This document shows positions 30,519 to 58,094 of a stretch of 64,000 nucleotides of DNA, in pieces (position 1 is the first letter of the stretch; the number at the start of each line of letters is the position of its first letter). The stretch is taken from the NCBI GenBank assembly GCA_025617375.2, contig JAMYGW020000001.1, positions 2,604,001-2,668,000 of the forward strand, written 5' to 3'. The notes beneath the pieces were generated by a model. It did no database searches. It had not been told where the DNA came from and saw only the letters and a list, made by a program, of their open reading frames with translations. This stretch comes from Acarospora socialis (lineage: Eukaryota > Ascomycota > Lecanoromycetes > Acarosporales > Acarosporaceae). The translations under genes and the position numbers were made by a program.

Positions 30519-30917
30519 TGTGGCGTTGTAGATTTAGTTGATTGTTTGCGCCTAACTCGTCCTCCACAACCCGCAAGTGTTCCGAGCTGTTGCAATGCTG
30601 TTGTTTCGCTTGGTGGATGCGCGTAAAAGAGGGCGGAGATTCGTCAAATGGTTTGATGACAGAGACAACTCGTGCGGTAGCGATTGGATCGAACGTACAG
30701 GATATTGAAAGATTGTTCAAAGTGCACTGAAGGCACCAATTCGATGACAGCCTTCTGCACGTTTGGACAATGTCGATTATGGTGCAAAAGTGAAGGGTGT
30801 TCAAAGATGGCTTAGTCAGATGAGGCTTTCAGGCTAGGTATAAACGGCTTAGGTACACTATAACTACCTAGGTAGGTAGGTACCTTATCCGCGCTACGGT
30901 ACCGAATAACGCTAATG
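30519..30917. promoter_or_regulatory. upstream region of the Swi3/Rsc8 gene, ending at a transposon target site
   Basis: About 390 bp of GC-balanced DNA with the intergenic motif family at 30,838-30,905 (CTACCTAGGTAGGTAGGTACC, GCGCTACGGTACC). It ends at the 6-bp target duplication CTAATG (30,912-30,917), after which the AT-rich element starts. Originally it probably continued directly into the ETF-alpha promoter at 41,872. Confidence 0.55.
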
Positions 30918-31435
30918 TACAGTGGACAATAACGAGGTTACCAACACATCAAATTTTTTTCAAATTTTCACAAAGTGTTAATGAATATTCATCATTAACA
31001 ACATGTAGCCATAGATTGTAGTAGAGAAATCATGATCTATAAGTAAATAATCAACATTCTCATTGTTGTACAAACAAACTCATCAACTACAACAATGATC
31101 ATCTTCATCTCAGTCATTAATGATATGACACAAACACAGAAAAACAAAGTAAATACTTTTTAATATAAAGACTGATCTGAGAAACTGATTGTATGAAAAT
31201 ATACAATAATGAATTTCAATTTAACAATACTCAGACACAGATTCTGAAGAAGTGAAAAAATGAAATAAAAATCAAAATATAATCAGAAAAAAATCACATC
31301 ATAATCAGCATGCTGCAGCAGACTTTATATATTGAAGTAATTATTATATAGTCTCAGTTTATATGATTTACAGCAATATACAACATTATACATTACTGAC
31401 ATCTTTTTAGCAGAGAAGAGAACAAGAAAAAATGT
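30918..31435 (+). repeat. left terminal inverted repeat
   Basis: Pairs with 41,397-41,871 in inverted orientation. The outermost 35 bp are almost identical and still contain GG, CC and CG. Further in, the copies are diverged but clearly related, e.g. shared CAGACACAGATTCTGAAGAA and CATTACTGACATCTTT blocks. The left copy has an extra segment of about 50 bp near 30,977-31,025. Confidence 0.85.
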
Positions 31436-34400
31436 GTTAACTGTGATAAAAGAAACAACTCATTTCAAGTATTACTCTCTGAAATCTAAATCATACAATA
31501 TTAATGATGTATAGAAATGTATTTCTATATCAGAGAATTTTTGAGATGTTTGTAACAATTATCAATGATATGATCACATGATCAAATGTAATCACAATGT
31601 GAATATCAAGATTAACAAAATCAGAAAAAAAAAGAAAAAAAAGAAACAGAAGAAGTAGATGATTCAGATATATTTAAATTGTATGACTTAGACATTTATC
31701 AAATATTTTAAATAGAAAATAAATATGTATTAATACAACAAGATAACAAGCTGTCAAAAAGTGCAGTGTTCTAACTGCTTTTATTGTTTTAATTAGTTTT
31801 AGTATCAGAGTCTGAATCATATAAGTAGATTAAGTTAATTGCAGTTAACTTATTCAACTAATCAGTCTGCACAGTCAATGATAACAACAGTGTATGTTTT
31901 TAGTACAAGTATTCTATATATCTCTCAATACAAGTACACAAATCATTTTTTGTGATCATCAACTCTCATATAATACATCAATGAACTATCATCTGAAGAA
32001 ACATCAAATTCTGCAGCAGTAAAGTCTTTTAAAATTGTTAATTGATCATTGAATAATGTATCTTTCTGATATAGAGATTAATAGAGAATTTTAGAAATAA
32101 AATTATACAACTTACTCAAGATAAATTGAATAATTGAGTAATATTCAATTTAATTCTTTAAGAAAACTTCTTTTTCTGTTCTTTTTTCTTAATCTTTATC
32201 TTTGTATTTTCATCAATCTTCTTCATTTTAATCTCTTTCAAATTATACAACTCATTCTTTACAAGAGTAATCAATCATAACTTGTATATATGATTTGTTT
32301 TGATGCAATAATCTCTCAATAAAGTCAAGACATTCAAAATCTTCATGACTGCTTTGTTCTCAATATGTTTCAAATCTGTCTTGATATTTCATGCAACTGC
32401 AAAACAGAAGAAATTATGAAAATGTTGTATGACTGAAGAACATTTAATTTCTGAAAGAATGTCACTTTATATGAAAGATAACAGATCATCAATGAAATGA
32501 TTGTTCAACAAAAATGTACAGTGTTGTTCTGTACAATATCAAAAGATTTAAGTTAAAAAAAGTTTGTATGAATTGCAATGATGTTAAGATTTAAATCACT
32601 ATATAATTCAAACTTTTTCAACTTCTTTTCATCATCAGAAGTTTATGAGAACTTTTGTCATGCAAGAGTGATGATTGTGCAATGTTTGAAAACTTAATTA
32701 TTGATGATCATTAATGAAAAAGTTATATAACTACTCAGAGCTGTTGTGTCAGCATGAGTTCTTTAACTTTCAACAGCATGAGTTGCTTGAAGTATACAGT
32801 GATTTACAACTTATTAAGCATCTTTTTCATGTCTGAAAAGAAAGTTTCAAGTTGTATGACTGAAAGAAAGAGCATTCAAATCAATGATGACAGAAAAATA
32901 AAAATTAATAATGTTACAATTATGAGAACAGTATTTGTATTGAGTGAAGAAGTATTCAGTAAAATACACAACATCTTTAAAAATGCAACATGAATTTCAT
33001 GATGATGAAGAAATCATTTTGTACAATTTGAATTATCTAAAAAGAAAGAAGATTTGCAAGCAAAAAAATCACAATTTCTGAAGATAGACATTCAACATGT
33101 TTTTTGAATTAACATCAGTGAATGTTTCATTTTCAACAAAATTTGCTTCATCATCATTTCATACAAAATTCTCACTTAGCTCATGATGTTCATTACATTC
33201 AATCAGCTCTCTGTTTTAATATACATAATTTTTATAAGATTTAGCAGATTCTATCAGAATTGAATATATCTTGAAGACAATATATAATTGTACAATAGTA
33301 TATAATTGCTTGTACATCTCAACATAACATCATGAATCATCAACAAGAACATTTTTCACTTTTACATCTTTCAGAACTATGCTCAATGCTTATAATTATA
33401 ATGTAAATCACTTAAGAGTTGCAGCAGAAAGATATTCATCAACATTTTTTTAGTCAGTATTTATTGTATGATTAATTGTGATGAAAACTTATCTCAGTCA
33501 TTATATAATGCTCTTATGATCATCATCACTTCTTTATTCACTCTTAGCACATAATTCTCAGCATTGATAATTTCTGAACAATGATATAACATTTATGAGT
33601 TACTCACTACTGAATTTGATTGATTGAGTTGCTTTTATACAAGATAAATGTTTCATAATTTCACATAATCATGAACTTCTTATCAAATGATGAACATATA
33701 CAGTGTTATTAGTGTGATGCAGTCTGCAAGACTGATATTATTTTAAAGATCTTGCTGCATAAGATCTTTAAAAAATGTCTGTACAAATTATTTAGTAAAT
33801 TATATAAAGTAATATCAACATAGAAATAACTTACTCATCATCAAAACAGTTGACTTTTAATCAACTGACTTCATCAAGCTTCAATTTGTTGATTTGCAGT
33901 GCTGATATCAAAGAAATAAATCTTTGACAGTTGTGTATGTTCATTTGCAGTTGTACAATTCAGTGCATGATGAACTTTCACACATAATGATGTTTTCTTG
34001 TCTCAATCAGAGCACAAAATTTGAGAATGTGCTTTCAAATTGCAAACAACATTCAGATACTGACAGAGTACATTGATTGTTGTATAATTTGATACATTAA
34101 TATAAATTCATGATAAATATCTGAAATAAACATCAATTTCAACATAGATCTCAATGTCTCAACAGAATAGTTTGTCATGATCATCAATAGATCATAGATA
34201 ATTGAGTCTCAACACAATATATTCTTCATGCTGACATTGAAGATCTTTTGTACAACAAATATGATCTTGAGAATTTAAATGTTTAATCATATTAAACAAA
34301 TAATCTCTAATACAACATGTCAAAAAGTGATCAGAAATAGAATCAGAATGATATACTAATAAATATTGAATTCTTTCATACAAAAGTGAGTATGAAGCAA

Positions 34401-34877
34401 TTCTCATTCATATTTATCAATGACATCAATATTCAACTCTTTCAACACAAGCTGTGTCATTTCTTCTTTTATCTCTTCAATGTTAAACAGAGAATGTCAA
34501 TGAATCATTTTTATTTCTTTTTGTAATTATACAATTTTATGCAATTCAATTTCATGTTCTTTTTTCTGCAATACATGTAGTATTTGAACATTATTGAGAT
34601 ATACTTCATAAAACAAAGCAACAATCTTAATTTGTAGTTCAGAAGTATCAATGATTTTGATTTTCTTTGAAATTTGTTATTCTTGCAATCTTTGCTCAAT
34701 CATACAATAACTACAAGTGATGTTTAACTCATCTTGAAGTTTTCTGCTAATATCTTGACTAAAGTGATTTTCTTAAAACAACTATATGACATAGTCTTTG
34801 CAGAAGTCAAGATTCACAGTTTGTGCTGATATTGTGAACAATGAATTTTATTTGTATGATTTAGAAATTAAAATTTG

Positions 34878-34970
34878 TGTGATTGTGACTGTGTATATTA
34901 TTACATAAGCAAGAAAATTGAAACTCATGTGATTGAAACTGTGTATATCTTCACATAAGCAAGAAAATTA
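34878..34970. repeat. two-copy tandem repeat, 50-bp period
   Basis: TGTGATTG...ACTGTGTATAT...ACATAAGCAAGAAAATT occurs twice in a row at 34,878 and 34,928 with a few differences. It lies in the outer element, just left of the nested LTR element. Confidence 0.6.
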
Positions 34971-35029
34971 ATTTTCTTTCTATAATATCAATGAACTACA
35001 GTATTGTACAAATTGAATACAATTATTAT

Positions 35030-35246
35030 TAAATTTATTGAAAGATAAAAGAAATACTCATGCTATACTGCTGACTAACTGTCTATCTAGTGAAACATAC
35101 ATCATTGACTTGATCATGATCAATGTAAGTTGTAAAGATTGTTTATTCACATGCTTTGTCATACAGACTATATGAGTAATGAGTAATCTCTGATGCTAGT
35201 TTCAACTAAGACTATGAAAGCAGTTAAAACATTGCACTTCTCAACA
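35030..35246 (-). repeat. 3' LTR of the Copia fossil
   Basis: 217 bp, direct repeat of 40,272-40,488, with roughly 10% difference judged by eye. Outer flank ATTAT. Confidence 0.85.
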
Positions 35247-38200
35247 CTTTCACTCAGTGATGCTGTATCTATTGACTTTCACTAACAATAAGTTTCAGTT
35301 GTTCAACAAAGCACTTAAAGATTCATTTAGATAAAAACTTAATTAATTCATCAGTCATCATGTCTTAACTGAGCACAAAGTTCACATCAATCTGATTTTG
35401 CTTGTGCAGATTACAGATATGATGATAAACAATATTAATGTGTTTTAATCATTCATGCACATGTGCATTCTTAATCAGAATCAAGACAGTCTGATTGTCT
35501 CTTTTGAGCTGAAGAGATGAAACTGCTCAATAAACTTCATTCTTTTTGATGCTTACACAGTATAGATTGTTTTCAAGATACTTGTTCATATTCATGTTTT
35601 ACAGCATCTGTGTAAGTCAGATCTCAGTCTTTGCATATATTAATATAATTATGTATTCAGTCTCTATGATTAAAATAACAACAAACTTTTACTTTTGACT
35701 TGTTTATAACATTAATCTGTCTTCAAACATGTACATATGTTTCAGAATTGACTTCTGATTTTGTTTGTCTGATGTATAGTTAAAGTTGAAATATTTAAGT
35801 ATGATTTGACTTTCACTGAATTCATACACAATGTTAAAATTGATGATTAATCTCACATATTGCAACAGTTTCTTAAACATATGTTTATGATGTTCTGCAA
35901 AATCACTAAAATATTGATTTAGTCAGTTTAAAATAAAGACAATGTTCAGTCAAATATGAATCACTGCATATATCAGACTTTCAATTGCATGTTGATACTG
36001 TCTTTAATCTATTCTTTAATCAGCTGAGCTGATGAAACAAAAAACATTATATTCATTAAGTGAGATTGTCATGATCTTGTGCTTATCAAACTGCATATAA
36101 AGATCTCTCAGCATCTTATTTACATAATAAGTCTGATCTAGATGTAGAATTCTTCTTTTGTGATTGTGTGTAACTTATATGTCAAGAATTTTCTGTGTCT
36201 CTCTTAAGTTCTTAACTTTGAACATTTTCACAAGAACTTTCTTGAATCAAAAAACATGTGTCAGACTTACTGAGACTACAATTATATTGTTTACATAGAG
36301 AAGCAGTATGATTCTTTTGATGCTGTTGATAAGAAGACATGAATTGATATTGTTTTAATGAAAGTTTAACTTGTGCAGATCAGTAATGCATCATTTATGT
36401 CAGTTTTGTGCAGTTTATTTCAAATCATAGAGACTACACAATATACACAGTGCACAGTCAGATGCAACTTGAACTTCAGAAAAAACTGTCATGTAAATGA
36501 TTTTTTTAAGAAAGAATTTTGTGAAGATGTTGTTAATATTTACTTAATGATATTTAAGATTCTCAAGAACAACAATGACAAAAAAGACTCAAAGAGTGTT
36601 GAACTTAACTGTAAATGCAAAGATGTTCTCATAATTAATGTTATACATCTGTGAGAAATCTCTCATCATAACTCTTGTTTTAAACTTGTTTAAAAATTTA
36701 TCAATATTCAATTTAAGTTTGAACATCTACTTGCTGATCACTATGTTTGCATTCTTTGATGACACAATTTCTTTTTATATTTCATTAACTGTCAGAGCTG
36801 TCAACTTTGCATAAATAGCATTTTTTTACATCTCTTCTCAAACTGAGTCTTTCACTGCTTCAGCATAGATAACAGATGTAAAAATGTTAAATTTGATGTT
36901 TTCAGTGTCTTTTTCATTATTTGTGATGAATGCTGTGAACATCAGTATCATTTGTGATATTTTGATCATAAGTTTGTTGAAGTCTTCATTGTTGTTATTT
37001 TGTTTTCTCTTTGAAATCTTGATGCACAAGAATGTTTTAACTTTTTCAGTTAAAATATTCAGTGCTTTGCTGACAGAAACTTCAATGTGTAAAAACTGCT
37101 TAATCTCACTTTATTCACTTGTTTGTGATCTGTTTGAATTGATTGCAGTTAATTTATTTATCATATGAATGTCTGATGAGAATGTGTCAAGATTGTCTGC
37201 ATTTAACTTAAATTTTTCTTTGTTATCTAAACTCATTATTCTGAATCTGTGAATCTGTTCAGAGATAATAGACAGAGTTGTAGATGTTGTGAAATCTGTG
37301 ATGATTGCATTCTTTCATGATCATTTGACTGACTTTTGTTCAGACAAAATGTTCAGCATTTATTTTTGCAATTTGAGATCAACACTGTCTTTCTTCTCAT
37401 TCTCAGCAAACTTTACAGCATGATTTTTGATGATTCACTTAAGATCTGAGATTCAAAGCAGATACTGCTTTGTGATTTTATCTATATAATTTATGAAAAC
37501 TTTCACTCATTCTTAATTCATGAACTTGTTCTGTCTGTTCTTCAACAATAACTTGAGATCAACATAAAAGTAGCACTTGCAACTTTAAACACAAATGTAA
37601 TCAATGAATAACTGCACATTAGTGAAGATTTTCTTCAGAGTTATTTATCTATCATTAATTAAGAGATCAGTTGCTGTTCAGTTATAAAAATAAACATCTA
37701 TTCACACTGTCTCTGTTCAGAACTTTATTGAAAGTTCTGTTTTTTTAATTATGATGTATACTGAATTCTCAGTGATACAGATGACTCTTTTAACAATATT
37801 ATTTTGAATAAACATATAAAACACAGTGTACTGCAGTGTAATGTTAAAGAATCTGCATTAGTCATTCAGAATTGATCTTAGTTTTATGACATTGTTACTT
37901 TATACAGCAAGCATTCTCACATCAATCTGAAACTCAATCTTTAATTGTTACTCTTACAGTTTCTGTAAAACATTATTGCATTACTTCAGCAGTATTGTTT
38001 ATGTTTTTCAAAAATAGTTGTTCATAATCTTCAGAAAGTACTGATGTCTGACAAATGATAAAGATAAGAAATTATATATATCAATGAAAATCAGAACAAG
38101 AATGTTGATCTTTTGCTCACTCACAGTGTACTTTCACTGATTGACAAACTTAATGATGACACAAACTTCACACATGTTTTTCTTGTCTTCAGCAATGAAA

Positions 38201-39954
38201 ATTGACTTCTTAAAAATCATGACTTTGTGAAGATCATAGAGTTTTGCAGAGTTAAGATGAACAAATTATTGATGTTACAGCTTGTAGATCTTGATCTTTT
38301 CACTTAAGAATGAAGTGTCAACAAAGCTTAATGAATCAATCTGTATCTGAAAGTTCACATTCAGTATTGTGACTGAAAGAGTCATCTCTGAATTGAATAA
38401 CATGTGTATGACAGATAACAGAGTGAACTCATTCAGTTCTTTTACAATGTATTTGACTATATAGACATTATCTCACTCAGACACTTTTATCATGACATTG
38501 TCATGTTTATTTCACATGTAAAGACTATGCTGATCAAAGCTTTTCTGCAATTTTATTTTGTATATTTGCTTTTCTAATAGAAGATTAACTTCTAGTTCAG
38601 ACATATAGAGTGTTAAACTCAGATTTATAAAGTTTCTGAATCTGTTTCATATCATAGTTACTTCACAGTAGTGAGAGTATAAGTGTTTTTTTTCAACTTT
38701 AATTCTTCAGCATCATATTCATATTAAAGAGCTGCTAAAGAGTTAATATTGATTAATTATGTGTGTAAAGTATTCAGAATTCACAACTCATTCAAAGCTG
38801 AGTATCTTACTGACAGCTTTCTTAAACAGAGTAACAATCTCATTGTCTTTCTCTGCATCAGACTCAGATAAGAATGAGTCATTGTTTTTTTCAATCTCAG
38901 CATCAAAAACTCTATGCTTTCTGTTTCTGTTCTTGAATCTTATTTTATTTTTATGATGTGAGTTGTCTGCAAACAATTTGTCTAACTTTCTGACTAACTT
39001 AACTGTGATTAAAACAGATAACTTTCTTAACTTAATGTTCTTGTAAGCAGCAGAAAGATATTCACAGTTTTAAATGTGATGAGAATCACAATAAAGAAGA
39101 TATTTGACTGATTTATGCTGAGAAAAATGATCATTGTTGAAGTTTGACAATCTTCAATAATGATATCTCACATCATACTGATATAAATGTGTTAAATCTT
39201 TCTTTTTGTGTCAATCTGTCTATAAGACAGTCTCAACAGTTTTTAATTGTATTTTCTTCTCTTGAAACTTCTGCAGACTTTTTTTGATGTTTGAAGTATC
39301 TTGAGTGTTAATTGTATTGTAGATCACTATGTAGTTCTTAAATAATGCTTGAAGAAGTGTTTAAAATTGTTGCTCAGACTTAAATAGATCAGTCATATCA
39401 AACTGAGTTGCAGCAATTTTTCTGTTTAGCTTGCTGAAATATGTTCATGCTTCATCAATGAACACATTTGTTGACATTCTATATTCAATAAACTTCATTA
39501 AATATTGTTTTTCAGTGATCTGCAGCTTCTTCTTGTATTTGAATTTCAAGATATCTCAAATATTCTTTGCATTAATCTTATCTGCAATGTACTTCTGATC
39601 ATCTGCACTGATATAAATAATGAATCAATACAGAGTCTTTATGTTAGACTTCTGACTTCTGAAGTTAAAATTGCTGAATAAAAAGAAGAAGTCACTGACA
39701 GAAGTGTTAATTACTGAGATTTTGATAATGTATTATAGATCTTTATTTATCAGTCATTTTCTCATGAAAGTGAATCATTAATTACAGTTTTTGTGACTGA
39801 GAATTGAGATAAATTGTTGTTTTGTGAAAGAGTTGTCAAAATTCATGATGTAGCTTTTGATGACAGTCAGCACATAATATAAAAAATAAATAAAATGAAG
39901 TATTAAGATGTACAGAAGAAGATAATGTAAATAAGAGAAAGAAGAAGTATGTAT

Positions 39955-40215
39955 GCTTGTTTGCTTAACTGTTGAGCATCATATTAAGTTATCAGTAAAT
40001 CTTGTTTTGCTCAATCTTAAAGTTCTGTATCAAGTGTCAAGAATGTTGTTTTGCTTAATTTTTGAGCTCTATATCAACAGTCAAGAGTGCTTGTTTTAAT
40101 TTTGTATCAAGCTGTCAAGAGTATTGTTTTGCTCAATCTTAAAGCTTTATATTGATGATCAGTAATGTTTGTTTTACTCAATCTTTGAGTTTTCATATCA
40201 AGCTGTCAAGACACT
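39955..40215. repeat. tandem repeats of about 60 bp beside the 5' LTR of the Copia fossil
   Basis: About four to five imperfect units built from TTGTTTTGCTCAATCTTAAAG and ATATCAAGCTGTCAAGA blocks. They sit in the untranslated leader region of the LTR element. Confidence 0.6.
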
Positions 40216-40271
40216 AAAATAGTATGCACTTTCTTTAAGAAGTTTCTTGCTAATCTGAGTTCATAATTTAT

Positions 40272-40488
40272 TAAATTTATTGAAAGATAAAAGAAATACT
40301 TGTGCTATACTGCTGACTAACTGTCTATTTAGTGAAACATACATTGTTGACTTGACTGTGATCAATGTGAGTTGTAAAGATTGTCTATTTACATGCTCTG
40401 TCACACAGACTATATGGGTAATAAGCAATTTCTGATGTTAGTTTCAACTAAGACTATGAAAGCAGCTAGAACACTGCACTTCTCAACA
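40272..40488 (-). repeat. 5' LTR of the Copia fossil
   Basis: 217 bp, direct repeat of 35,030-35,246. Followed by the target duplication ATTAT at 40,489-40,493. Confidence 0.85.
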
Positions 40489-41396
40489 ATTATATTGATT
40501 ATAAATCTAATCTACTGACTTGCTTGACTTCACTATTGATATAACTATTAGTTTTAAGCACTGTAAAGAAGTGCAAGTCTTGTTTAGATGTCATAATAAC
40601 TCATATGATTAGATGAAAAACAAAGAACAAAAATCAACAAGAAGATTAAAAAAAATTTGTATGTATTTATTACAACACAATAACATTCTTTGATGATCAT
40701 TCATCTTTATGCTCAGCAGACTCAGAGTTTAAACTTAAATGATGCTCTTTAACTATCACAATATTATCATCATTCTTATCAACAGTACTTTCATTGTCAT
40801 TTTGTACAAAGCAGTAAGCTGTATGATCACATTATTTGCAGTTTTCACATGTCTCATCAAAATATTCTGCAATGCAACAACATTCTGAAAAAAGTCTTAA
40901 AACTGACATGTACTGCATACATATTTGTTTGATTCTTTCATGAAACTGAATAAAAATATCATTGATGTACAAAGAATAGTGTGTTGAAATCTGCTGTGAA
41001 GTAATTACATTTTATATAAATTTCACAAATTGTTCAAAAAGAATCAGAAGTCTTTTACTTTGTGAACTGTGAACAAAGAGAGTGAGCTTTTACTGTTTTA
41101 CTAAAAATAAAATTCTGCTGAACAGCAGCAGCAGTAATGACTGCATTGTATATGATAAGAGTTCTATATTGTATGATCTGTTAACATCAATGTATCAAAA
41201 TTATTTCTGTGTACTTACATGATGATTATGATTAAAGTTGTGATAGTAATGAATCTGAAAGTGAAAGTAAAAATAAAGTTAAATAAAAAGCAGAGCATCA
41301 GTTGTACAAAGAACTTCATTATTATTCATTTAATAAAACTGTATAGCTTGTAGAATCTATGAACTAACTCAATGATTTACTATAATTTAAAAAATT

Positions 41397-41871
41397 ACAT
41401 TTCTTCTTGTTCTCTTTCTCATTAGAAAGATGTCAGTAATGTTTAATGTAGTATATTACTGTAGATTGTACAAATTAGAACTATATGATAACAGCTTCAA
41501 TATAAAAAGTCTGCTGCAGTATTAAGATCATCATCTGATTCTCTTCTGATTACAGTTCTATTTTTTTTTCATCTTCTCACTTCTTCAGAATCTGTGTCTG
41601 AATAATGTTAAATTAGAACTCACTGTTATATATCTTCATATGATTAATTTCTCAGATTAATCTCTATATTGAGAAGTATCTACTTCATTGTTCTGTGTTT
41701 ACACTATATCATTGATTACTGAGATAGAAGTGAACATTCTTGTAAATGATTAATTTGTTTGTATGATGATGATGATGTTGATTACTTACTTACAGATCAT
41801 CATTTCTCTATGTGTTTGTGAAAATTTGAAAAAATTTTGATGTGTTGGTAACCTCGTTATCGTCCACTGTA
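41397..41871 (-). repeat. right terminal inverted repeat
   Basis: Reverse complement of the left repeat; ends CCACTGTA followed by the target duplication CTAATG. It ends 157 bp upstream of the ETF-alpha start codon. Confidence 0.85.
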
Positions 41872-41877
41872 CTAATG

Positions 41878-42028
41878 ATTGGCTAAAGCCACATTGAAAC
41901 ATTTGCCTCGGCTTTCAATCCCGGACATTGGGTATCGCCATTCAACTGGAAGATCTGCCTTACATCGAAACACAAGGAGTATTTCACCAAACGGGTGGGA
42001 TCAGAGCTGTCGATTGTGTATGTGCATC
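41878..42028 (+). promoter_or_regulatory. promoter/5' UTR remnant of the ETF-alpha gene
   Basis: Only 151 bp of host DNA remain between the transposon target duplication and the ETF-alpha start codon. It begins ATTGGCTAAAGCC, an inverted CCAAT box (bound by the HAP/NF-Y complex in fungi). Regulatory sites further upstream would now lie 11 kb away. Confidence 0.5.
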
Positions 42029-43207
42029 ATGAACTCGCCATGCCGGCGGTCAGTGTTGCGACAAGCTCGAATGCACCTCCGCACCCAAACATCGGTCCCC
42101 GTTACTCAACTATCGCCACTGTCGCGGTTGCTGTCGAGCCTTGCAGTTCTCGAGCACCGAGAAGGCAAACTACAGACAGGATCGTTAGGTTCCATTACAG
42201 CTGCGAAGAAGATTGGGGGATCGATAACGGCCTTTATTGCTGGCAGCGAGGCCAAGTCGGTAGCAAAGGAGGCTGCGAAAGTTGACGGCTTAGAGAAGAT
42301 CATAACAGTAGAAAATGCCGCCTACGACAAGGTAATCTCTTGGCCTGATGGCTTGCGCTGCGAATCCGAAGCTAATCATTCGTATTGGTGGCCCGCAGGG
42401 CTTACCGGAGAACTTTGCCCCCCTCCTCGTTGAGAACATCAAGAAAGGAGAATTCACACATGTGTTTGCTGGTCATTCAGCATTTGGGAAGAACCTTATG
42501 CCACGAGTGGCAGCCCTGTTGGACTCACAACAGATATCAGATATAATAGCTGTTGAGAGCGAAGATAGTACGTTCATTTGCCCTAGCGATTGCCGGACCT
42601 TACGCGGGTCTAACACCCGCGGTTCATAGCATTTACTCGAACGATTTACGCCGGAAACGCCATTATGACTCTTCAGACCTCTGATCCCATCAAAATCATA
42701 ACAATCCGAGGGACAGCATTTCCAGCTACTGAGATGTCGGGTGGCTCCGCCGACATCACTGAAGGCGTAGACCCGAAGGCAGAATCCCCGACGGAATGGG
42801 TCTCCGAGGATTTGGCGAAATCAGATCGGCCGGATCTCGCAACAGCCGGCAAGGTTGTATCCGGCGGCAGAGGTCTCAAGTCAAAAGAGCAATTCGACCA
42901 GCTGATACCTCCGTTGGCGGATGCATTGGGTGCAGCGATTGGCGCGTCAAGGGCTGCGGTCGACAGTGGATTTGCGGACAACAGTCTACAGGTTGGCCAG
43001 ACTGGAAAGAATGTTGCTCCACAACTTTATTTGTGTGCGGGGATATCCGGAGCTATCCAGCATTTGGCTGGCATGAAGGACAGCAAGGTCATCGCTGCCA
43101 TCAACAAGGATGGCGACGCCCCGATATTTCAGGTTGCCGATGTAGGATTAGTTGGAGATCTCTTTGAGAAGGTGCCAGAGTTGACCGAGAAACTTTCTAA
43201 ACAATAG
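42029..43207 (+). CDS. ETFA: electron transfer flavoprotein alpha subunit, mitochondrial
   Basis: Three exons: 42,029-42,331, 42,399-42,567 and 42,630-43,207, introns of 67 and 62 bp (GTAATC...CGCAG; GTACGT...CATAG), giving 349 residues. The N-terminus [18 protein letters not shown] is a likely mitochondrial presequence. The N-terminal domain has [11 protein letters not shown] and the [15 protein letters not shown] core. The C-terminal FAD-binding domain has [53 protein letters not shown] and [22 protein letters not shown], which are hallmark ETF-alpha segments. With ETF-beta it carries electrons from acyl-CoA dehydrogenases to the respiratory chain. The gene is intact although it lies on a 1.5-kb island between AT-rich repeat blocks. 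Confidence 0.95.
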
Positions 43208-43380
43208 AATGAATCTTCAAATAGTCCCAATCCCACGTGGATGGTCTTTCCTCCGATTAGGTACTCAAGTAAACTATGTGAGCAAAGAAACTCGTACTCG
43301 TAGAGAGACTGACAAGACAAGATAAGATTAGATAAGATAAGATTAGATGAGGTTCTTCCTATTGATGATAAGGTTAAGGT
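43208..43380. other. ETF-alpha 3' flank with GATAAG array
   Basis: Short GC-balanced region downstream of ETF-alpha. At about 43,318-43,349 it holds repeated AAGATAAGATTAGATAAG units (at least three GATAAG cores and GATTAGAT spacers). Downstream of 43,381 the sequence turns AT-rich. Confidence 0.5.
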
Positions 43381-43965
43381 ACAAAGTGGAGGACAAAAAT
43401 GTTCACTCACTAGTCAAATCCCCACCAAATCTCATAGTTTTCATTAATAGATATCTGAAGATGCAGTTAATCAAAAATTCTGAAAATCTAACATGTTATA
43501 GATATTTAGTTAGAGAACACAGATATCAACTCAATTTCTGTTGTATTGCTCTGTTGATGTAATAGCTATTGTGATTTTTCAGTAAACAGTCAACATTTTA
43601 CAAATATGTATGTAGAATCATTGATTTTTAGTGAATTTTCTGTAAACAAAAAGAAATCAGTATATGAAACAATATATTATACTTTTAATACACTTATGTT
43701 GAAATTAGAAGACTCTTTAAAAGTTTAACTCTATTTAATTTAGTGTTGAAATCTTCTGTGTCACATGATATTGCTTAGTTATTATACACAAAAGTTATTC
43801 TTTGTGTATTTCAGTCTTCTAGATAATTAAGACATCTAATATTAAGTAATAGAAATGTTTCAAAATTTCAACAAATTATGAACTCAGCTTTCTGTCTTAT
43901 CTAGAATGTTTTTTTGTCTTTAATTGATCTCATTATCATCATTTTAACAGCATCTTTTCTTATAT

Positions 43966-44135
43966 CAATAGTCTACCTGAATGCTTTCTTGAACAACTCT
44001 TTTGTTATTTCAATATTCTCAAACAACATTTTTCTTTTTCATCTTTTCAATAGTTTACCTGAGTGCTTTCTTGAACAATTCTTTTGTCATCTCAATATTC
44101 TTGAATGATGTTCTTTTTTTTTGTCTTTTCAATAG
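43966..44135. repeat. tandem repeat, 82-bp period
   Basis: CAATAGTCTACCTGAATGC begins at 43,966 and recurs at 44,048 with a few differences; a third partial start is at 44,130. The units share CTTTCTTGAACAA, TCTTTTGT and TCAATATTCT blocks. Confidence 0.7.
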
Positions 44136-44991
44136 TCTACACATTTTGATGTTCATTCTGCAGAAATAATTCACATAATTATGATTTTCTTAAACAGCAC
44201 TTTTAACTTTTCTCATCTTGCTAATGCTGATAACTATGTCTTATAAACTATTAACATCAAGTTTGTTCTTATGAACAAAAATCTATAAGCTGTTTGTTAG
44301 AATCAATTTATATGATTGATTTCTAAGTCTATGATAATGTGTTGATTGCTTGAAGAAACTATTTAGAAAGTAATGTTTTACTCAGATACAAATCTTTTAA
44401 AAATTAGTGCTGAGTATTTCTGCAGAGTTTCATCTTATTATAAAGTTTCAATTTTGCTGAGTTCTATGAATTCATAACAACTATTTATGAAAACATTAAA
44501 AGATGACATTCTTGTTACACATGTTAGTCATACTAGTATGAAGTACAACAACAGCAATGTTTTCTGCTAATCTTCTGTGTTAAAATGTTTCTTGTAGTTT
44601 TGTTCATTATATAGTTTTTTCATCAATTTCTTTTCTTCATGATTTGTCTGTGCAACTAAACTGATGATAATGAAAACAATAAAATAAAACATGATCAATG
44701 ATGCAGAGATGCTTATGAAGATTATTTGATGATAAAAAGACTTAATGACATGTGTGACATGTTTGAGAATGTGATTTCATCATTGATTTGTTGTATGTTT
44801 TGAGATGTAATTTGACATTTGAAATCACTGAAATTTGTGTGTTTTTTGAGATCAATTTGTGATAATGTTGTGTAGATGTTTTGACTGTGATTTTATAGTG
44901 AAATGCAACAACTTATGTCTTTAAGTTATCTGTCATCTTTGAGAATTTAGTGAAGAAAGTCATAAATTCATGATGACTATTCATGATTAAT

Positions 44992-45046
44992 GTTAGAAAT
45001 ATAACTCATGATTAGCATGACTAAAGTATGATGTTCACTTTTGACA
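44992..45046. repeat. 55-bp direct repeat, copy 1
   Basis: Starts GTTAGAAATATAACTCATG and ends TTTTGACA. The second copy is at 45,247-45,301, 255 bp downstream, with about six differences. Confidence 0.65.
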
Positions 45047-45246
45047 GATTATGAGCTCAAGTTAGTGCAGTGAAAAAATCTTGCAAAAAATGTGATTAAT
45101 TCTGTACATCTATTGGCCACTTAGAGTGTGAAGAGTAAGCTCAAAGATTGTAGATTTAACACACATTACACACACAAATTCTGTCTGCACAGAGCTGAAT
45201 CTCAGTGATATAAGTACATTGTTGATGATCATGAGTTAGAGAAAGT

Positions 45247-45301
45247 GTTAAAAATATAATTCATGATTAGCATGACTAAAGTGTGATGCTTACTTTTGAC
45301 A
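45247..45301. repeat. 55-bp direct repeat, copy 2
   Basis: Starts GTTAAAAATATAATTCATG and ends TTTTGACA; pairs with 44,992-45,046. Could be the remains of a duplication or of element ends. Confidence 0.65.
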
Positions 45302-47712
45302 ATTAATCTGTCATTTTCACAGTTCAAAATCATGTTCTCTGTCTGCATAACATTCATTTTAACAAGAAGTTCAGTGTTGAGTTTATTCACTATGTGAGTC
45401 TTGCATCTCATGTAGATCTTGTTATTGTTATTATTGATGTCATAAATGTATAGATATAAATTGATGTGCTTGAAGAAGATAAATTTGCTGATGATATCAT
45501 CAATTGATAGAGTTGTTTCACTAGATTGTGAAAGATTTTCAGCAGCTAAACTGTGATCAATAAGTATGTGAGTGATGTTAAAGTCTAAACACACAGATTG
45601 AAGTTCAGTGATAAGATTGTTGATGTTGATCTTTATAATAATATAGTTAATAAAGATAATGACATTGATTTAATACAACAAGACAAGATAGTTGTAGTGA
45701 GTGTTCATGATGTAATATTTGAGATGTGTAGTCAAAGAAAAGATTTTTTTGCATGTCAGACATGAGTAGATACACTGTGTAATTGCTTAATTTGCATAGT
45801 CATGATTTGCTGTGTCATCTTGACTAGAGTCTTGATTAAGATACTCATCATTTTGTTGATTCACATAGTAAACTGTGAAATATACTTCAACATTGTTGTC
45901 AGAGTTTGCATCAACATAATAGACTGACTGTGTATTAAAATCATTATACAAGTGAATAAAAGATGTAATTGCTAAAAATCTACCTATAAAAAATTCTGTC
46001 TAAATATCTATAGAGATGTCTTTCACATCTAGTAACTAGTCATAAGTTCATGATGACAGTAAACTTGCAAAGTGACTTGATAAATCATGTTCAACAACTG
46101 AGATCAAAACAGCAAGACTATACTCTATTCATAACAATCTGTCATTTTCTGCAAAAGTTAATGATCTTGTTGAGTAATCAATATCTGATGATAATACAAA
46201 TTGTGTAATAATGTAAGAACATTATGATACTAAATTGTTCACATCATTGAGATATAGATAGAGAGAATGAAAAGCTTAAAGCTCAATCTGTTTTGATGAC
46301 ATCTGATGACACTTTTTTTTTTTTTTACTGTTGATGAAATCTTCAATAACTACACAATATGTTGTTGTTTGTAGTTCTTCATCAGTTTCTTGACAGAACC
46401 AAAAAACCACAGAACCACAACTAAAGCAGCTATCAAAATTCTGAATAGTGCAAATTCTTTGTCTCATTCACTTCTATAAACCCTCAAAACAGCTTATCTT
46501 CATCATCAATACTGGTGGTGGGGTACCTCAATTATCATTCAGTGAAAATTTTTCGCGTACCTCCAGCCAAAACTCAAAACAACATCTCAGACATCAACAT
46601 CGCCACAATCAACGCATCTTTGAAAATTCTGAATCAACAGTTTTCTTCACCTTGATCTCTTCTAAAATTCATACTATTACTGCTTTTTGATATCTTTACT
46701 GCTCACAAAGTTGTTGGACTGTTTAGTTGTACCCCTTAGTATCTAGTTTTTGAAGTTCGCAAATTTTCGCTTAATTTTTCTAGCTTGCTTGACAGAGTTT
46801 CTGCGCACCAAGCATCACCAGATACCTCAACTAAGCCTCACTCACACCAAAACACCAAAAACACCAAAACAACCAAGAAAACACCAAAAACACCACTTTT
46901 ACGCCAACTACACAGCAATTCCAGCCTATACACACCAAGCCACATCAATTCACGCATTATACAACATACCTACATAGCTCCACCATCAAAACAAGCTATT
47001 TTATCAACAAAATCGACTACTTTTCAGCTATTTTCGCCCAAAAACCAGCGTTTCAGGTCAAATTTTTAAGCGTTACAGGCTGAATTACACCAAATTGCTC
47101 AATTCCAGCAACTGCACGCAGTTTCCGCAAAAACTAGCCGCAAAATAGCCATTTCTTGACGGATTTAGCTGGAATTTGAGCATTTCTTCTGTCAATTGAT
47201 TAGCGTTTTGCATGCAGAAAGAACCTACCAGTGAAGACATACCCTACACTAGAAGCATCTCACAAAGACCTAGTGAAGGGTATAAGCAGGTAGCTATTTT
47301 CTAGCCCTACCTGCTGGTAAAAGCTCAGACTGGCAAACAACGTCGTCTGAGTAGTTGGGATATAAATACGAGGCTCCACGTGGAAATCTTGCCCTAGACG
47401 CATCTGCCCCAAGACCTAGTGGTTGAGTGACTTATAGTATAGTCTTGCTTATAGTAGAGCTGGTAAAAGCCTATTGTAGAGTTTATCTACTCTAGGTGAA
47501 TTGGGATATTAAGCAACATCTGGATTAGGCAATTGGGTACAGCCTATTCTAGATGAAATAAGGATCCAAAGCTTCTATAATCTAGAACCTCAGGAAAATC
47601 TAGTTTTTACCTTTAAAAACTAGATAATTACTGCTAGACATAGACCTTCTGGACCTGGATTTGGATAGGATTTTGGATTTGGACAGGACGGACCCCAAAA
47701 ACACCTCATATC

Positions 47713-49302
47713 ATGACTTTTGCACTGGATTCTAGCAACTTCATGCAAGATTTCAACCTAGAAAACCCAAAAACACCTACAAAACAACAAAAATCACCAA
47801 AAACAGCACTTCCACAACTCTTTATGAGTTCACCAGACCTGTTGGGATCACAAATCACCATGAAACCTTCTCAAAAGACTATTCTAAAGTCTAAAAAGAG
47901 AAGAGCCATTGCCAGTCCAGTGCTAGAAGCTATTTCTTCTGATGAAGAATCAAATCAGCATGAAACTCATCATGCAAACTGCACAAACCTACACCCAAAA
48001 AGTCAAAATGGTGACAAACTACTTCAACAAGCCAGAAACTACCTCAAGCAAGCTATTCAGCAATTCACAAACCCCATAGTTCAACAAGAACTAGAAACTA
48101 GCATCAAGACACTGGATCAAGCAAGACAAAATGCAAATCTAGACTCACTCAAACAGTCAGATGAAGCATTTCATCAGAAACTAGATGTTCAACAACAACT
48201 AGACAGCTTCAAAGATGAAGTCAACATCAAACTAGACAAAATTCTTCACACAATGTCTAAAACAAAGTCAGAAACCACAGAGAAACCAGCATTTGTCTTT
48301 CAGACAAACAAAACAAACCCTATCAACTTTGTACAGACAAACAAAACCAGCTTTGGACAGCCAACATCAACAAAAACAGTGAAATCAGCAACATATGCAT
48401 CAATTGCAAGCAGCAAAGATCAAAATGCTCAAAACTCATGGACAACTGTTCAAAAAAAAGCACCAAAGTCAAAAGTAGTGGATAAACCCATTACTTTCAG
48501 AGAAAGACGTCTAGTTATAAAGTCAAAAACACCCACAACTACTATCAATGCCATAGACATGCGCAACAAAATCAACAACACACTTAAAACAGCAAAAATA
48601 GACAATTTGCTGGTTTCCACAGTTGCTATTTCACAATCCAAAGCTAGTATAGTGCTCACAACCAGTGAAGGCACAGCAGAAGACTTGCTAAAACATCAAC
48701 AAATCTGAAATTCATCATCTGAATTCATAGAAATCAAAAAGGATGAAAAGTGGTACAAAATAGTAGCACATGGAATTCCCACAGCTATTTTCAACGGCAA
48801 AGAAGACATGCAACTAGTCAAAGATGAAGTAGAAATCTTCAACAAAGATATCAAACTAGCTATTTTACCACGCTGGCTTACTTCAGAAGAAGCCAGACAG
48901 GAAAAACAGCATGCATCTATTGTTTTGACAGTCAAATCAGAACAAGAAGCTCAAAAAGCACTCAGAAACAGACTGATAATTACTGGAACATCAGTTAGAA
49001 CTGCAGTCTACAACACTTGCAAACCAACAGATCAATGCAGAAAGTGTCAAAAGTTTGGACATACTCAAAAAGTATGCAAAAATCAAGACACATGTCAATT
49101 CTGTGCGGGAAACCACAATACTAGAGAACATGGCTGTTTCCTTTGTCCCACACAGTCAAAAGGAACCACTTGTGCACATATAGTCTATAAATGCAGCAAT
49201 TGTGGTGAGAAACATCAAGCAAATAGTGCAGAATGCAGTGTTTTCAAAGCACTACAGCCTATTTCTTCAACAGCAGATCCACTATCTATGAAAATGTCAT
49301 GA
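47713..49302 (+). CDS. LINE copy 1 ORF1 (gag-like RNA-binding protein)
   Basis: 530 codons from the ATG at 47,713 to the stop at 49,300-49,302. One in-frame TGA at 48,706-48,708 (after LLKHQQI) splits it into 331 and about 197 residues. The first half is rich in Gln, Lys, Thr with a coiled-coil-like middle. The second half has a PRE/RRM-like region (EKWYKIVAHGIP...) and three Cys-rich knuckles: CRKCQKFGHTQKVC, CQFCAGNHNTREHGC and CSNCGEKHQANSAEC, as in Tad and Jockey ORF1 proteins that coat LINE RNA. The TGA sits where related LINEs, as I recall, have Trp (consensus DIW...). Its context TGAAA fits TGGAA with GG changed to GA. Confidence 0.85.
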
Positions 49303-52300
49303 ATAACACAACAAATTCATCACAAATCACCATTCTACAACACAACTGCGCAAGATCTATGAATGTCATGTACTCATGTCTGAATTCAGCTACAAAAACT
49401 GCAGACATAGTTCTTCTTCAAGAACCATGGGTTGCAAGAGACAACAAAACCACTATTTCACATTCATCTTTTACTAGTTTGATACCCACATCTAATCTAG
49501 ATATTAGACCTAGAACTATGGCATTTGTGTCTAAAACTAAACAAGATTTAGTGTGTATACCAAGACCTGACTTGTCAAAAGACTCAGATTTGCAAATACT
49601 CAGTATTTCAGCAAATGGAATTTCTAGTATACTGTTACTTAACATATACAATGAAAAGTCACAGCAAATCAACAATGATCAATGGACCATAGACAGATGT
49701 TTAACAGCAATTCAACTACCACAAAGAGCTACTATCTGTGGGGATTTTAATGCACATCATGCATGGTGGAATTCATCAATAGAAAACTCTATAAGAGCTA
49801 CTTCTTTGATAAACTGGCTGAAAATTCACAACTGTGAGCTATTAAATACACCAGACATAAACACCTATACACATCACTCAGGAAATGCCACATCAGTGAT
49901 TGATTTGACTTTTGCAACACCCTTACTTTGCAATTTCATCAGAAATTGGCAAGTAAATCAAGACATGGAGTCTGGATCAGACCATGAAGTTATTCAGTTT
50001 CAAATAACTGCAAATGAGTCTGAATGGGTTGAAAGTCCACTGAGTGCATCATACAATATAGACAAAGCAGACTGGGTTAAATTTGCAGAAACTCTGCAAA
50101 TAAACTCAGTACAAACCAGTGTTCAAATTCAAAGCTTAATGCAACATCTATCAGATCAAAATCTAGAAGAAATGGCTATTTCTCTCAGAAATCTGATAGC
50201 AAATGCAGCAGATCAGCATATACCAAAGAGAAAACCTTGTTCAAAAGCCAAAGTATGGTGGTCTGAATCATTATCAGTACTTAGAACTGAAATGAGTGGT
50301 TTTAGAAGATACTGGAAACATCACAAATCACAAGAAAACTGAAATCAATTCAGAAATGCAAGAAATAGATACTTTCACGCAATTCAGAAAGCCAAACATA
50401 CCTCATGGACTACTTTTCTGCAAGGTGCAGCTGGAAAAGATGTTTTCACAGCATATCATTACACTAAACCACGAAAAATAGAGAAAACACCTCCTATAAA
50501 GCATGAAAACAAAGTAGGACTCACATTTAAAGACAAATGTGACTTGTTTCTTGAAGCTATGTTTCCAAAACCACCTCAAACAAGTTCAGTTGAGCTAGAA
50601 TGTGATAATAGTCTCACAAAACCATGGTTTTCAGTCATTTCTAAGGAAATAAAACAAGCTATTATGACTTCATCAACAAAAAAAGCACCTGGGCCAGATG
50701 GATTGTCCTTTTTGATAATTCAACATGCATATCAAGCTATATCTGAGTTATTTCACACTGTTTATTCAGTTTTAATAAATCAAGGTTATCATCCAGTATG
50801 CTGGCGTCAAGGAACTGGTGCAATTCTAAGAAAAGAAGGCAAAGCAGACTATTCAATACCCAAAGCATATAGGCCAATCACTCTACTAAATTGCTTGGGC
50901 AAAATATCTGAAAAGATAATGGCAACAAGACTTTCCTATTGGGCTGAAACCACAAACTTGCTATATCATGAGCAAATGGGCAGTAGAAAGCAAAGATCAG
51001 CTGTGGATGCAGCTATGTGTTTAACACATGACATTCAACAAGCAATCAACAACAACAAAGTCTTGACAGCTTTATTCTTGAATGTTAAGGGTGCATTTAA
51101 CTATGTGTCTTTAAATCAACTGCTAAAAGTCATGAAAAGACTACATTTACCACAAACTGTACTAAAATGGGTGCAATGCTTTCTTACAAATAGAACAATT
51201 GCTCTAGCTTTTGATGGTGAAAAAAATCACCCACAAAGTGTCAATTCTGGAATTCCACAAGGATCACCTATATCACCAATGCTATTTTTGATCTATATGC
51301 GATTTCTATTCACAAAAATCAACAATAAACACACTCAACTAAAGCTACCAAGCTATATTGATGATGTGGCTATTATTGTGGAAGGAAAAACAGCTGCAGA
51401 CAACAGCAAAACACTAGAATCAGTCACAAAAACTGCATTTCAATGGGCTGAAGAAAATGCAGTTATATTTGATGACAGCAAGTCAGAACTCATCCATTTT
51501 CAGAAAGGAAATCAAGCTATATCAACAGTAAAACTACCAAATAACACTGTTATACATCCTTCTAAAGTTGTACACTGGCTAGGTGTTTGGTTTGACACTA
51601 AAATGTCTTTTAAGACACATGTGCAAAAGAAAATAGCTTCTGCAACTAGAACATTGCATTTACTGCATAGACTGATGAATTCTGAATGGGGTTTATCAAC
51701 ATCAGCTGGAAAACAGCTGTACACAGCCTGCATCACATCTATAAGTGACTATGGAAGCCCAGTATGGTGGAAACAACAAAAGAATTTTGAAAAGCTGTTT
51801 CAAAAACTTCAAAATTCAGCAACTAGAAAAATTCTAGGTGCATTTAGGTCTTCACCATCAGCTGCTATGGAGCTAGAATCAGCTATATTACCACCCAGAT
51901 TTAGACTTGATCAAAAAACAGAGCTATATGCTTTAAGAATAGCTACTTTGTCAGAAAATCATCCAATTAGACAAAGAACTCCATACACCTACCCACCAGG
52001 ACTTGGAACTGGATGTGATATTGATGAAAATCATTATCTTGACTGGAATCAACATCCAAACTCTCTCATTAAGAAGAAACACCCAACTCAGTTGATTAAA
52101 GTGCTATATAGCATTTGCAAATATCTACCAGAAACACTAAATTTGGAGGTTTCAACTCAAAATGAGTTATGCTGTGCACCTTGGAGTGTTTCACCAAACA
52201 TAGACATTCAAATCAGCAAATCTGACAAAAAACTAGCTACTTTGGAACATCTAAAGAGACTAGAAACACTTTTCTCTAAGGAAATCAAGTTTAAAAATGC

Positions 52301-53180
52301 TGTTTTGTACACAGATGGGTCAAAACTAGATGAGAATCTAGGTGCAGGTCTTTGCTACATGTATAAAGATATTATACATCAACAATCTTGGAATCTAGGA
52401 ACCACCATGGAAGTCTATGATGCTGAATTGTTTGGAATTTCACAGTCTTTGAAGTTAAGTCTCAAAGAAATCATGAAATATCAAAGAATCAAAGACATAT
52501 GGATCTTTTCAGACAATCAAGCAGCTATACAAAGAATTCAAACTACAAACCAAGGATCTGGACAGCAGCTAGCTATTAAATGTCAAGAAACTCTTCAAAA
52601 ACTCATAGATTATGAAGTTACACCTCATATTCATTGGGTTCCTGGACATGAGGACATTAAAGGCAATGAAATAGCAGATGAAGCTGCAAAATCAGGTGCA
52701 AAGCAGTCAATTTCACCAGATATTGATAGATTTACATCTATTAGCTATATCAAACACAAAATCAAGGTCAAAGCACTGGAAAACTGGACCACTCACTGGA
52801 AAAAGACAACCCAAGGAAGATACTATGCTCAGTTTGATCAAACACCTAGTTTTCACATCAAAGAAGATCTGAAAAGTGCAGACAGACTTTCATTTGCTAC
52901 TTTTACACAAATGAAACTAGGTCATGACTATTTCAAAGCATATCTGCATAGATTATCAGACTATAATAGCAAGAAATGCAATGGTGCATGCAACAAAGAT
53001 CAAACTCCAGAGCATTTGTTGACAGCCTGTCAATATAACAAAAAGGAGCAAACTGAGCTGAAAAATCAGCTCAGAAACATCAATTTGCCATATACAGCAA
53101 AGGTGCTGTTTACTACCAAGGAAGGAATCAAAGCTACTTTGCTGTTTTTGAAGAAAACCAAAGTAGCTACTAGAAAATGA
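49299..53180 (+). CDS. LINE copy 1 ORF2 (endonuclease, reverse transcriptase, RNase H)
   Basis: Begins at ATG 49,299, overlapping the ORF1 stop as ATGA, which suits termination-reinitiation. 1293 codons with one in-frame TGA at 50,340-50,342 (SQEN-TGA-NQFRNARN), most likely a former Trp. AP-endonuclease motifs: LQHNCARS, LLQEPW, CGDFNAHHAWW, SGSDHEV. Reverse transcriptase: KAPGPDG, YRPITLLNCLGKISEK, GIPQGSPISPMLF, SYIDDVAII. RNase H: LYTDGSK, AELFGI, SDNQAAI, WVPGHEDIKGNEIADEAAK. C-terminal CNGACNKDQTPEHLLTAC zinc motif. At codon 595 the first Asp of RT motif A is Asn (LFLNVKGAF; copy 2 has LFLDVKGAF), so this copy's polymerase is probably inactive. Confidence 0.88.
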
Positions 53181-53413
53181 TTATTAGAAGAAGTTGAGGA
53201 TGAAGATGAGATTTAGAAAAGAAGAAAGATATTGATTGACAATCAGCATCAGGTTGACTGAACAGAAGTGATCAAAAAGTATTCAGATTGATTATTCACA
53301 TGTACAAGATTTTGAGTTTTGTTTTGTGTCTACATCTTTCACTATATGTCTATTAACTGCCATAGCTTTTATAGCTGCATGCATAGAATGAAGAATAAAT
53401 AAATAAATAAATG

Positions 53414-53980: not shown

Positions 53981-54212
53981 TTTTTTTTATTTATTTATTC
54001 TTCATTCTATGCATGCAGCTATAAAAGCTATGACAGTTAATAGACATATAGTGAAAGATGTAGACACAAAACAAAACCCAAAATCTTGTACATGTGAATA
54101 ATCAATCTGAATACTTTTTGATCACTTCTGTTCAGTCAACCTGATGCTGATTGTTAATCAATATCTTTTTTCTTTTCTAAATCTCATCTTCATCCTCAAC
54201 TTCTTCTAATAA

Positions 54213-57200: not shown

Positions 57201-58094
57201 ATTTCTGAGAGAAATAGTCATTTCTTCTAGATTTTGATCTGATAGATGTTGCATTAAGCTTTGAATTTGAACACTGGTTTGTACTGAGTTTATTTGCAGA
57301 GTTTCTGCAAATTTAACCCAGTCTGCTTTGTCTATATTGTATGATGCACTCAGTGGACTTTCAACCCATTCAGACTCATTTGCAGTTATTTGAAACTGAA
57401 TAACTTCATGGTCTGATCCAGACTCCATGTCTTGATTTACTTGCCAATTTCTGATGAAATTGCAAAGTAAGGGTGTTGCAAAAGTCAAATCAATCACTGA
57501 TGTGGCATTTCCTGAGTGATGTGTATAGGTGTTTATGTCTGGTGTATTTAATAGCTCACAGTTGTGAATTTTCAGCCAGTTTATCAAAGAAGTAGCTCTT
57601 ATAGAGTTTTCTATTGATGAATTCCACCATGCATGATGTGCATTAAAATCCCCACAGATAGTAGCTCTTTGTGGTAGTTGAATTGCTGTTAAACATCTGT
57701 CTATGGTCCATTGATCATTGTTGATTTGCTGTGACTTTTCATTGTATATGTTAAGTAACAGTATACTAGAAATTCCATTTGCTGAAATACTGAGTATTTG
57801 CAAATCTGAGTCTTTTGACAAGTCAGGTCTTGGTATACACACTAAATCTTGTTTAGTTTTAGACACAAATGCCATAGTTCTAGGTCTAATATCTAGATTA
57901 GATGTGGGTATCAAACTAGTAAAAGATGAATGTGAAATAGTGGTTTTGTTGTCTCTTGCAACCCATGGTTCTTGAAGAAGAACTATGTCTGCAGTTTTTG
58001 TAGCTGAATTCAGACATGAGTACATGACATTCATAGATCTTGCGCAGTTGTGTTGTAGAATGGTGATTTGTGATGAATTTGTTGTGTTATTCAT
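54213..58094 (-). pseudogene. LINE copy 2 ORF2, interrupted
   Basis: Counterpart of copy 1 ORF2, again starting with an ATGA overlap (58,091-58,094). In-frame TGA codons: 57,051-57,053 (shared with copy 1), 55,209-55,211 (CAP-SVS), 55,002-55,004 (QQS-NLG), 54,663-54,665 (DID-FTS) and 54,594-54,596 (TTH-KKT). At four of the five, copy 1 or related LINEs have Trp (TGG); at 54,663 copy 1 has Arg. The RT motif A Asp is kept here (LFLDVKGAF), as are GIPQGSPIS and SYIDDVAII. The N-terminal endonuclease part differs from copy 1 in only about three residues of 369. Confidence 0.85.

Follow-up and report, generated by a model that had tools for sequence, protein, structure and literature searches.

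Repeat-induced point mutation (RIP) of the Neurospora type changes C to T on both strands of repeated DNA while sparing genes, leaves old copies saturated, and is RID- and DIM-2-dependent. The same kind of change in repeats, spared genes and saturated old copies recur in the ascomycete Acarospora socialis, whose genome has a DIM-2 homologue and a putative RID-like gene and which we examined in a 64,000-nt window (contig JAMYGW020000001.1, positions 2,604,001–2,668,000 of the forward strand, assembly GCA_025617375.2) carrying a ~10.95-kb element with terminal inverted repeats (TIRs) and two copies of a long interspersed nuclear element (LINE). In contrast to Neurospora-type RIP, CpC and CpG are preferred here over CpA, CA and TG are enriched, TA is not raised and the usual RIP indices are negative. 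The process works like RIP yet fails its CpA context, so it is a variant and not a member. We think it probable that a RIP-like C-to-T mutator of repeats acts on both strands with CpS (C followed by C or G) as its preferred target and with CpA and CpT (together CpW, C followed by A or T) as weak secondary targets. As read from aligned copies, the mutational rule is well supported, and the RIP-like nature of the process is likely. Ascomycete RIP contexts were reportedly surveyed by Clutterbuck in 2011, and we know of no explanation for what determines the RIP target base. Natural comparison with a relative whose preference is reversed would help to locate what sets the 3′-base choice.

As far as the accessible text of the reports goes, other described systems resemble this one in part. 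The Dim2-dependent mitotic mutator of Zymoseptoria tritici shares a DIM-2 homologue and C-to-T change in transposon-rich DNA, but there it is CpA that mutates, even though methylation is highest at CG (PMC8016269). CpG-type transposon mutation, known from Microbotryum and from MATE of Aspergillus nidulans (CpG, then CpA), likewise turns CpG into TpG or CpA in repeats, whereas CpC is hit equally per site here and CpA is not preferred (PMC2621366). Stagonospora nodorum repeats, too, are short of CpC, CpG and GpG, yet CpA to TpA is dominant there and CpA and TpG are depleted as well (PMC2621366). Species-specific CpA, CpT and CpG signatures have been tied to Dnmt1 subclasses, a parallel in that 3′-base preference varies by species and tracks methyltransferase genes; a CpT context is reported, but the term CpC is absent from the accessible main text (PMC4352252). 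A survey of Ascomycota relies on CpA/TpA indices and thresholds (PMC7882544), a 2025 kingdom-wide k-mer screen found RIP-like defences to have CpA preference in common (PMC12543289), and Endocarpon pusillum (Verrucariales) has ordinary CpA-type indices (PMC3897900). An open-access search returned no report of a dominant CpC context, a statement about the text that the search reached and not about print at large.

Dinucleotide depletion in the AT-rich blocks

The assembly comprises 31.1 Mb in 38 contigs, and the window lies on a contig of 4.08 Mb. The DNA examined consisted of the window, 10 kb beside it, five 6-kb stretches picked by place alone and not by content (L029–L032 and L049), a few gene loci and copies of repeats. 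Three AT-rich blocks and a gene island bear on dinucleotide content:

30,918–41,871, no strand assigned: ~10.95-kb repeat element with TIRs and a CC/GG/CG-poor interior, delimited from sequence, aligned arms and other copies
41,872–43,340, plus strand: gene island with normal CC/GG/CG, including an electron-transfer flavoprotein alpha FAD-binding domain at 42,665–43,204
43,450–46,400: second AT-rich block, with CC 5, GG 1 and CG 0 (43,450–46,390: CC+GG 5, CG 0)
61,001–64,000: third AT-rich block, made of other repeat families, with CC 4, GG 2 and CG 0

The original prediction held that AT-rich DNA here had lost CC, GG and CG while keeping CA and TG, and recounting bore this out. Positions 33,121–33,360, for which about 29 CA, 11 TG and no CC, GG or CG had been counted, contain exactly those numbers. 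Across 30,960–41,830 (10,871 bp) the loss is nearly total, as claimed: CC occurs once, GG twice and CG never (3 of 10,870 dinucleotides, located at 31,009 and 40,416–40,417), compared with a mean of 615 and a minimum of 551 in 200 base shuffles of the same interval. Chance was rejected as the cause on this comparison. CA (857) and TG (891) each reach 1.61 times expectation in the interval, with TC at 1.35, GA at 1.30, CT and AG at 1.1–1.2 and TA at 0.66 times. The second and third blocks, for most of which the same loss had been asserted by eye, have no CG and six CC or GG apiece, and the gene island retains CC, GG and CG at 0.92–0.97 times expectation, as does the gene half of the window (1–30,959). 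A chromosome-wide base bias was rejected as well, since gene regions keep normal dinucleotides. The depletion pattern extends outside the window, two of the five arbitrarily placed 6-kb stretches being AT-rich blocks of this kind (L031 with CC+GG 4 and CG 0; L049 with CC+GG 36 and CG 0).

All three survey indices are negative on the element block (product 0.70, substrate 1.56, composite −0.86). Because the CpA preference is reversed, the usual RIP indices miss the mutation, and index surveys can score such C-to-T-saturated repeats as RIP-free. Depletion of CA and TG with an excess of TA, named at the outset as a pattern that would refute the prediction, is absent from the window blocks, from the cores of the TIR family and from the LINE copies. 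A classical CpA-type RIP whose signature has been masked by age or composition is accordingly very improbable. It would suit the presence of a RID-like gene and the mutation of CpA sites in old copies, both described below, but it conflicts with the enriched CA and TG, the low TA and the index values; moreover, changes in the LINEs avoid CpA, and a simulated CpA process run to exhaustion fits worst.

Context of C-to-T changes in LINE copies

The most informative part of the window, passed over in the original prediction, is a pair of LINE copies that are nearly devoid of CG yet retain many CC and GG:

46,576–53,411, plus strand: LINE copy 1, with an endonuclease frame at 49,227–50,342 and a reverse transcriptase/RNase H frame at 50,343–53,180
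53,982–60,817, minus strand: LINE copy 2, inverted relative to copy 1 and 97.6% identical to it

The pair differs by 151 transitions and 12 transversions. Counted against copy-1 sites, C-to-T changes fall on 75 of 357 CpC and 16 of 64 CpG, compared with 32 of 1150 CpA and 28 of 916 CpT. Genome-wide, at least 44 LINE matches were listed; match counts for repeat copies are lower bounds throughout, scored from the best candidates, and the copy searches covered four repeat stretches, with L031, L049 and 43,450–46,390 outside them. Twenty loci were cut out, one of which was a window copy, affording an alignment of 21 copies (both window copies and 19 other loci) in which singletons, the changes present in a single copy, were given a direction from the base that most copies carry. 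Singleton C-to-T changes affected 70 of 278 CpC and 6 of 24 CpG sites, 25% in each context, but only 43 of 989 CpA and 30 of 751 CpT sites, or 4% (CpS versus CpW odds ratio 7.7, Fisher P 6e-28). The rule originally deduced from composition, that C turns into T ahead of C or G, is thus upheld in young copies. The skew was more pronounced for T common to at least two copies (CpC 102, CpG 13, CpA 15, CpT 12) and still more so between the window copy and its five closest loci, counted in both directions (CpC 84, CpG 7, CpA 10, CpT 5). These five loci, about 99–99.7% identical to the window copy, are separated from it by 13 to 31 CpS transitions and 0–1 transversions. Decay confined to CpG through deamination of 5-methyl-CpG was rejected, as CpC had changed at the same rate as CpG. 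Both strands were mutated, with 86 C-to-T and 63 G-to-A singletons; the remaining singletons comprised 37 T-to-C or A-to-G changes and 23 transversions.

A preceding C had no effect: CCA (8 of 168) and CCT (2 of 68) changed at background, and ACC (28 of 115), TCC (25 of 85) and GCC (5 of 40) were raised. Since a C that follows C but precedes A or T stays at background, it is the leading C of the CC pair that mutates. CC is a hot context for both APOBEC-like deaminases and ultraviolet damage at dipyrimidines, which would recommend either as a cause of CpC loss. Here, however, the mutated C precedes another C and does not follow it, CpG is mutated too and gene regions are spared, so that an origin in deaminase or ultraviolet damage is barely credible.

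LINE codon use may document how a transposon lives with a mutator of this kind. Across the LINE frames (1,670 codons), Pro, Gly, Trp and Met make 167 CC, GG or CG obligatory; the avoidable ones number 96, versus 566 predicted by host codon usage (from five host frames, with a minimum of 512 in 200 runs), and the same test applied to host frames as a control gave 1424 observed versus 1532 predicted. Arg is encoded 48 times by AGA and six times by CGN, and none of the codons ends in CG. Relative to expectation, avoidable CC stands at 0.29, GG at 0.23 and CG at 0.03, with CA at 1.30, TG at 1.21, CT at 1.06 and AG at 0.99.

The 44 listed LINE matches form one cluster per contig (C1, C4–C12 and C14), none larger than 148 kb, for example at 2.65–2.80 Mb on C1, 1.53–1.60 Mb on C5 and 0.18–0.27 Mb on C10. 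This arrangement suggests that the clusters are LINE-rich regional centromeres and that the right half of the window is the edge of one. Beside LINE copy 2, a ~130-bp LINE end at 60,818–60,947 matches 53,282–53,412.

Saturated copies and edges of the TIR element

The TIR element shows where mutation stops and what remains when it has run its course. Its parts are as follows:

30,918–31,010, plus strand: left TIR with an unmutated outer edge, the last CC at offset 92
35,027–35,500, no strand assigned: a repeat from another family, nested in the element, probably begins here, block matches breaking at 35,026
41,814–41,871, minus strand: right TIR, outer part unmutated

A 6-bp target-site duplication, CTAATG, flanks the element at 30,912–30,917 and 41,872–41,877; the superfamily of the whole (30,912–41,877 with duplications) is not assignable from the mutated interior. 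A query with 32,001–35,500 gave at least 49 matches in the genome including itself, eight other copies spanning its first 3 kb at 89–92% identity, and a query with 61,001–64,000 gave at least 85 including itself, the others partial. Core stretches of 11 further TIR-family copies (32,137 bp) contain two CC or GG and no CG.

Eight element ends were compared, seven left ends including that of the window plus the window's right end; L038, L042 and L043 had no terminus match and L040 and L044 an inner match only, and these were left out of the count. In all eight, no CC, GG or CG of the first 0.9–1 kb falls more than 92 bp from the terminus, one end (L041) being itself partly mutated. The mutation boundary therefore sits inside the repeat, and the adjoining gene island at 41,872–43,340 is unaffected. 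The electron-transfer flavoprotein domain of the island has a single match genome-wide; its upstream part is distributed over several frames, presumably interrupted by introns, and the gene may or may not be intact. Two 5.8S/internal transcribed spacer copies also look unmutated by eye. Together, the edges and the spared genes fit a process that recognises repeated DNA and leaves a margin of some 100 bp; repeat copies would be recognised by homology.

Summed over the pairwise comparisons, an alignment of 12 saturated TIR-family copies (the window copy plus 11 loci excised from among the 48 other matches listed) contains 19,163 transitions and 376 transversions. Sites inferred to be former CpG now read CA (502), TG (438) or TA (191), and none reads CG. 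As a consistency check, we simulated conversion of the window's gene DNA, whose composition was assumed to be ancestral. Simultaneous CpS conversion fitted best (GC 0.269 versus 0.279 observed; dinucleotide divergence 0.018 bits); CpC-only conversion gave 0.20 bits, CpG-only 0.28 bits and CpA rules 2.7 bits, the worst fit, though a value inflated by the fact that no CA survives exhaustive conversion.

Several results weigh against the proposed CpS mutator. The 869 C/T-variable sites of the 12 saturated copies divide into CpA 361, CpT 264, CpG 194 and CpC 41, classes that are biased in that a neighbour is scored as C or G only when at least one copy still keeps it. CpA and CpT thus make up 625 of the 869; one or more copies read T at 361 of 495 CpA and 264 of 361 CpT sites, and about 22% of copies carry T per CpA or CpT site. 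The expectation that CpA would not be the main C-to-T context accordingly held in the young LINEs but not among the variable sites of the saturated copies. One-at-a-time CpS conversion ended at GC 0.352, above the observed 0.279 (0.079 bits), and the mirror rule, in which C mutates after C or before G, was somewhat worse at 0.103 bits; with the mirror rule nearly as good, composition alone leaves the side of the neighbour undecided. In the LINE frames, CG survival of 0.03 is about half the 0.067 predicted from one rate per strand (CC × GG). An AT-rich codon null (GC at third codon positions 0.31), which partly removes the effect it should test, gives CC 0.58, GG 0.42 and CG 0.06, the last a quarter of the product of 0.24. 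Finally, runs tests for strand clustering in four of the 21 LINE copies (10–19 sites each) gave P values of 0.18, 0.69, 0.47 and 0.43 and hence no signal.

Because CC and CG are gone from the saturated copies and the young LINEs show the opposite order, we read the CpA and CpT changes of old copies as slow secondary mutation once CpS is exhausted. A strong CpS preference would first use up CpS and then slowly erode CpW. Either simultaneous conversion or an AT-richer ancestor would fit the gap in GC.

The deficit of CG raises the question of two processes, with CpG lost through DNMT5-type methylation and deamination and CpC through another activity. Young LINEs have indeed lost CpG more fully (observed/expected 0.10–0.14) than CC and GG (0.59–0.96; copy 1 has CG 0.14, CC 0.66 and GG 0.96), the L049 and L048 blocks retain some CC and GG with no CG, and survival under the AT-rich codon null points the same way. 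Singleton rates for CpC and CpG are nevertheless equal, albeit with 24 CpG sites, CpG presents a target on both strands, and under plain host codon usage CG survival lies within twofold of the product. We therefore regard two processes as quite unlikely, and a single activity may stand behind both CpC and CpG loss. The partly mutated L048 family has copies near the starts of three contigs, at most 11 kb in (C1:7146–10252, C2:4438–7530 and C11:1004–4097), and is possibly subtelomeric.

Candidate methyltransferases

The original prediction proposed a search for RID- or DIM-2-type methyltransferases, and searching the genome with the PF00145 profile turned up three such genes through four matches. 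DIM-2 and DNMT5 homologues co-occur with a putative RID-like gene in this one genome. The DIM-2 homologue on contig C3 (L027) matches 9bap with an E value of 4.7e-200 and has the catalytic PCQ within SPCQGYS; its BAH match, at 29.5 bits, is slightly below the Pfam cut-off of 30.8. The DNMT5 homologue on C8 (L026) consists of a PF00145 frame and an SNF2 frame side by side on one strand, probably a single gene given their adjacency, the second of which matches 7r76 over 1,162 residues (E 6.5e-207). We take 7r76 to be Cryptococcus Dnmt5, although the printed PDB name is Rad8. In the third gene, on C2 (L028), PF00145 is split over two reading frames; from its motifs we presume this candidate to be RID-like.

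In the structure of Neurospora DIM-2, N1170 and R1145 touch the non-target strand at its +1-flanking site, whereas R1175 intercalates, sequence preference being left open in the accessible text (PMC11315935). The nine DIM-2 residues named there align with the A. socialis homologue at one offset: R1145, T1164, T1166, T1167, D1173 and R1175 are kept, and K1143 is replaced by N, T1144 by V and N1170 by R. As a possible structural cause, an arginine at the N1170 position might recognise G in either strand and so promote C:G or G:C at +1. DIM-2 orthologues are reported to differ in non-CG +1 preference, with CT preferred in Neurospora crassa, and in Z. tritici CA ahead of CC (PMC8016269). Dim2 is described as nearly absent from eurotiomycetes (PMC12543289), which would bear on this genome if a tentative reading of its internal transcribed spacer, pointing to the Chaetothyriomycetidae, were right.

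Such variation among orthologues, together with the DIM-2 and DNMT5 homologues and the lack of strand clustering in the four LINE copies with enough sites, would also be compatible with passive decay, in which these enzymes methylate CpC and CpG in heterochromatin and 5-methylcytosine deaminates spontaneously with no dedicated mutator. We consider this unlikely. The five near-identical LINE loci already show their CpS transitions with hardly a transversion, loss is near total in the old family, and its edge falls sharply inside the repeat end; in Z. tritici, moreover, CGs are the most methylated yet are not reported as high-rate mutation sites (PMC8016269).

For the RIP-like CpS mutator, the agent would be a cytosine-methyltransferase-type protein of the fungus itself, either the RID-like protein or DIM-2, with DNMT5 a less likely candidate. 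A more specific version, which we advance tentatively and with some doubt, is that of a CpS-specific mutator in which the 3′-base choice of RIP has been turned round, either by DIM-2 with its Asn-to-Arg change at the residue contacting +1 or by the RID-like protein; repeat families would have been driven to nearly zero CC, GG and CG, and the active LINE would have purged most of those it could dispense with. The genome also contains a match to the MAT1-1 alpha box.

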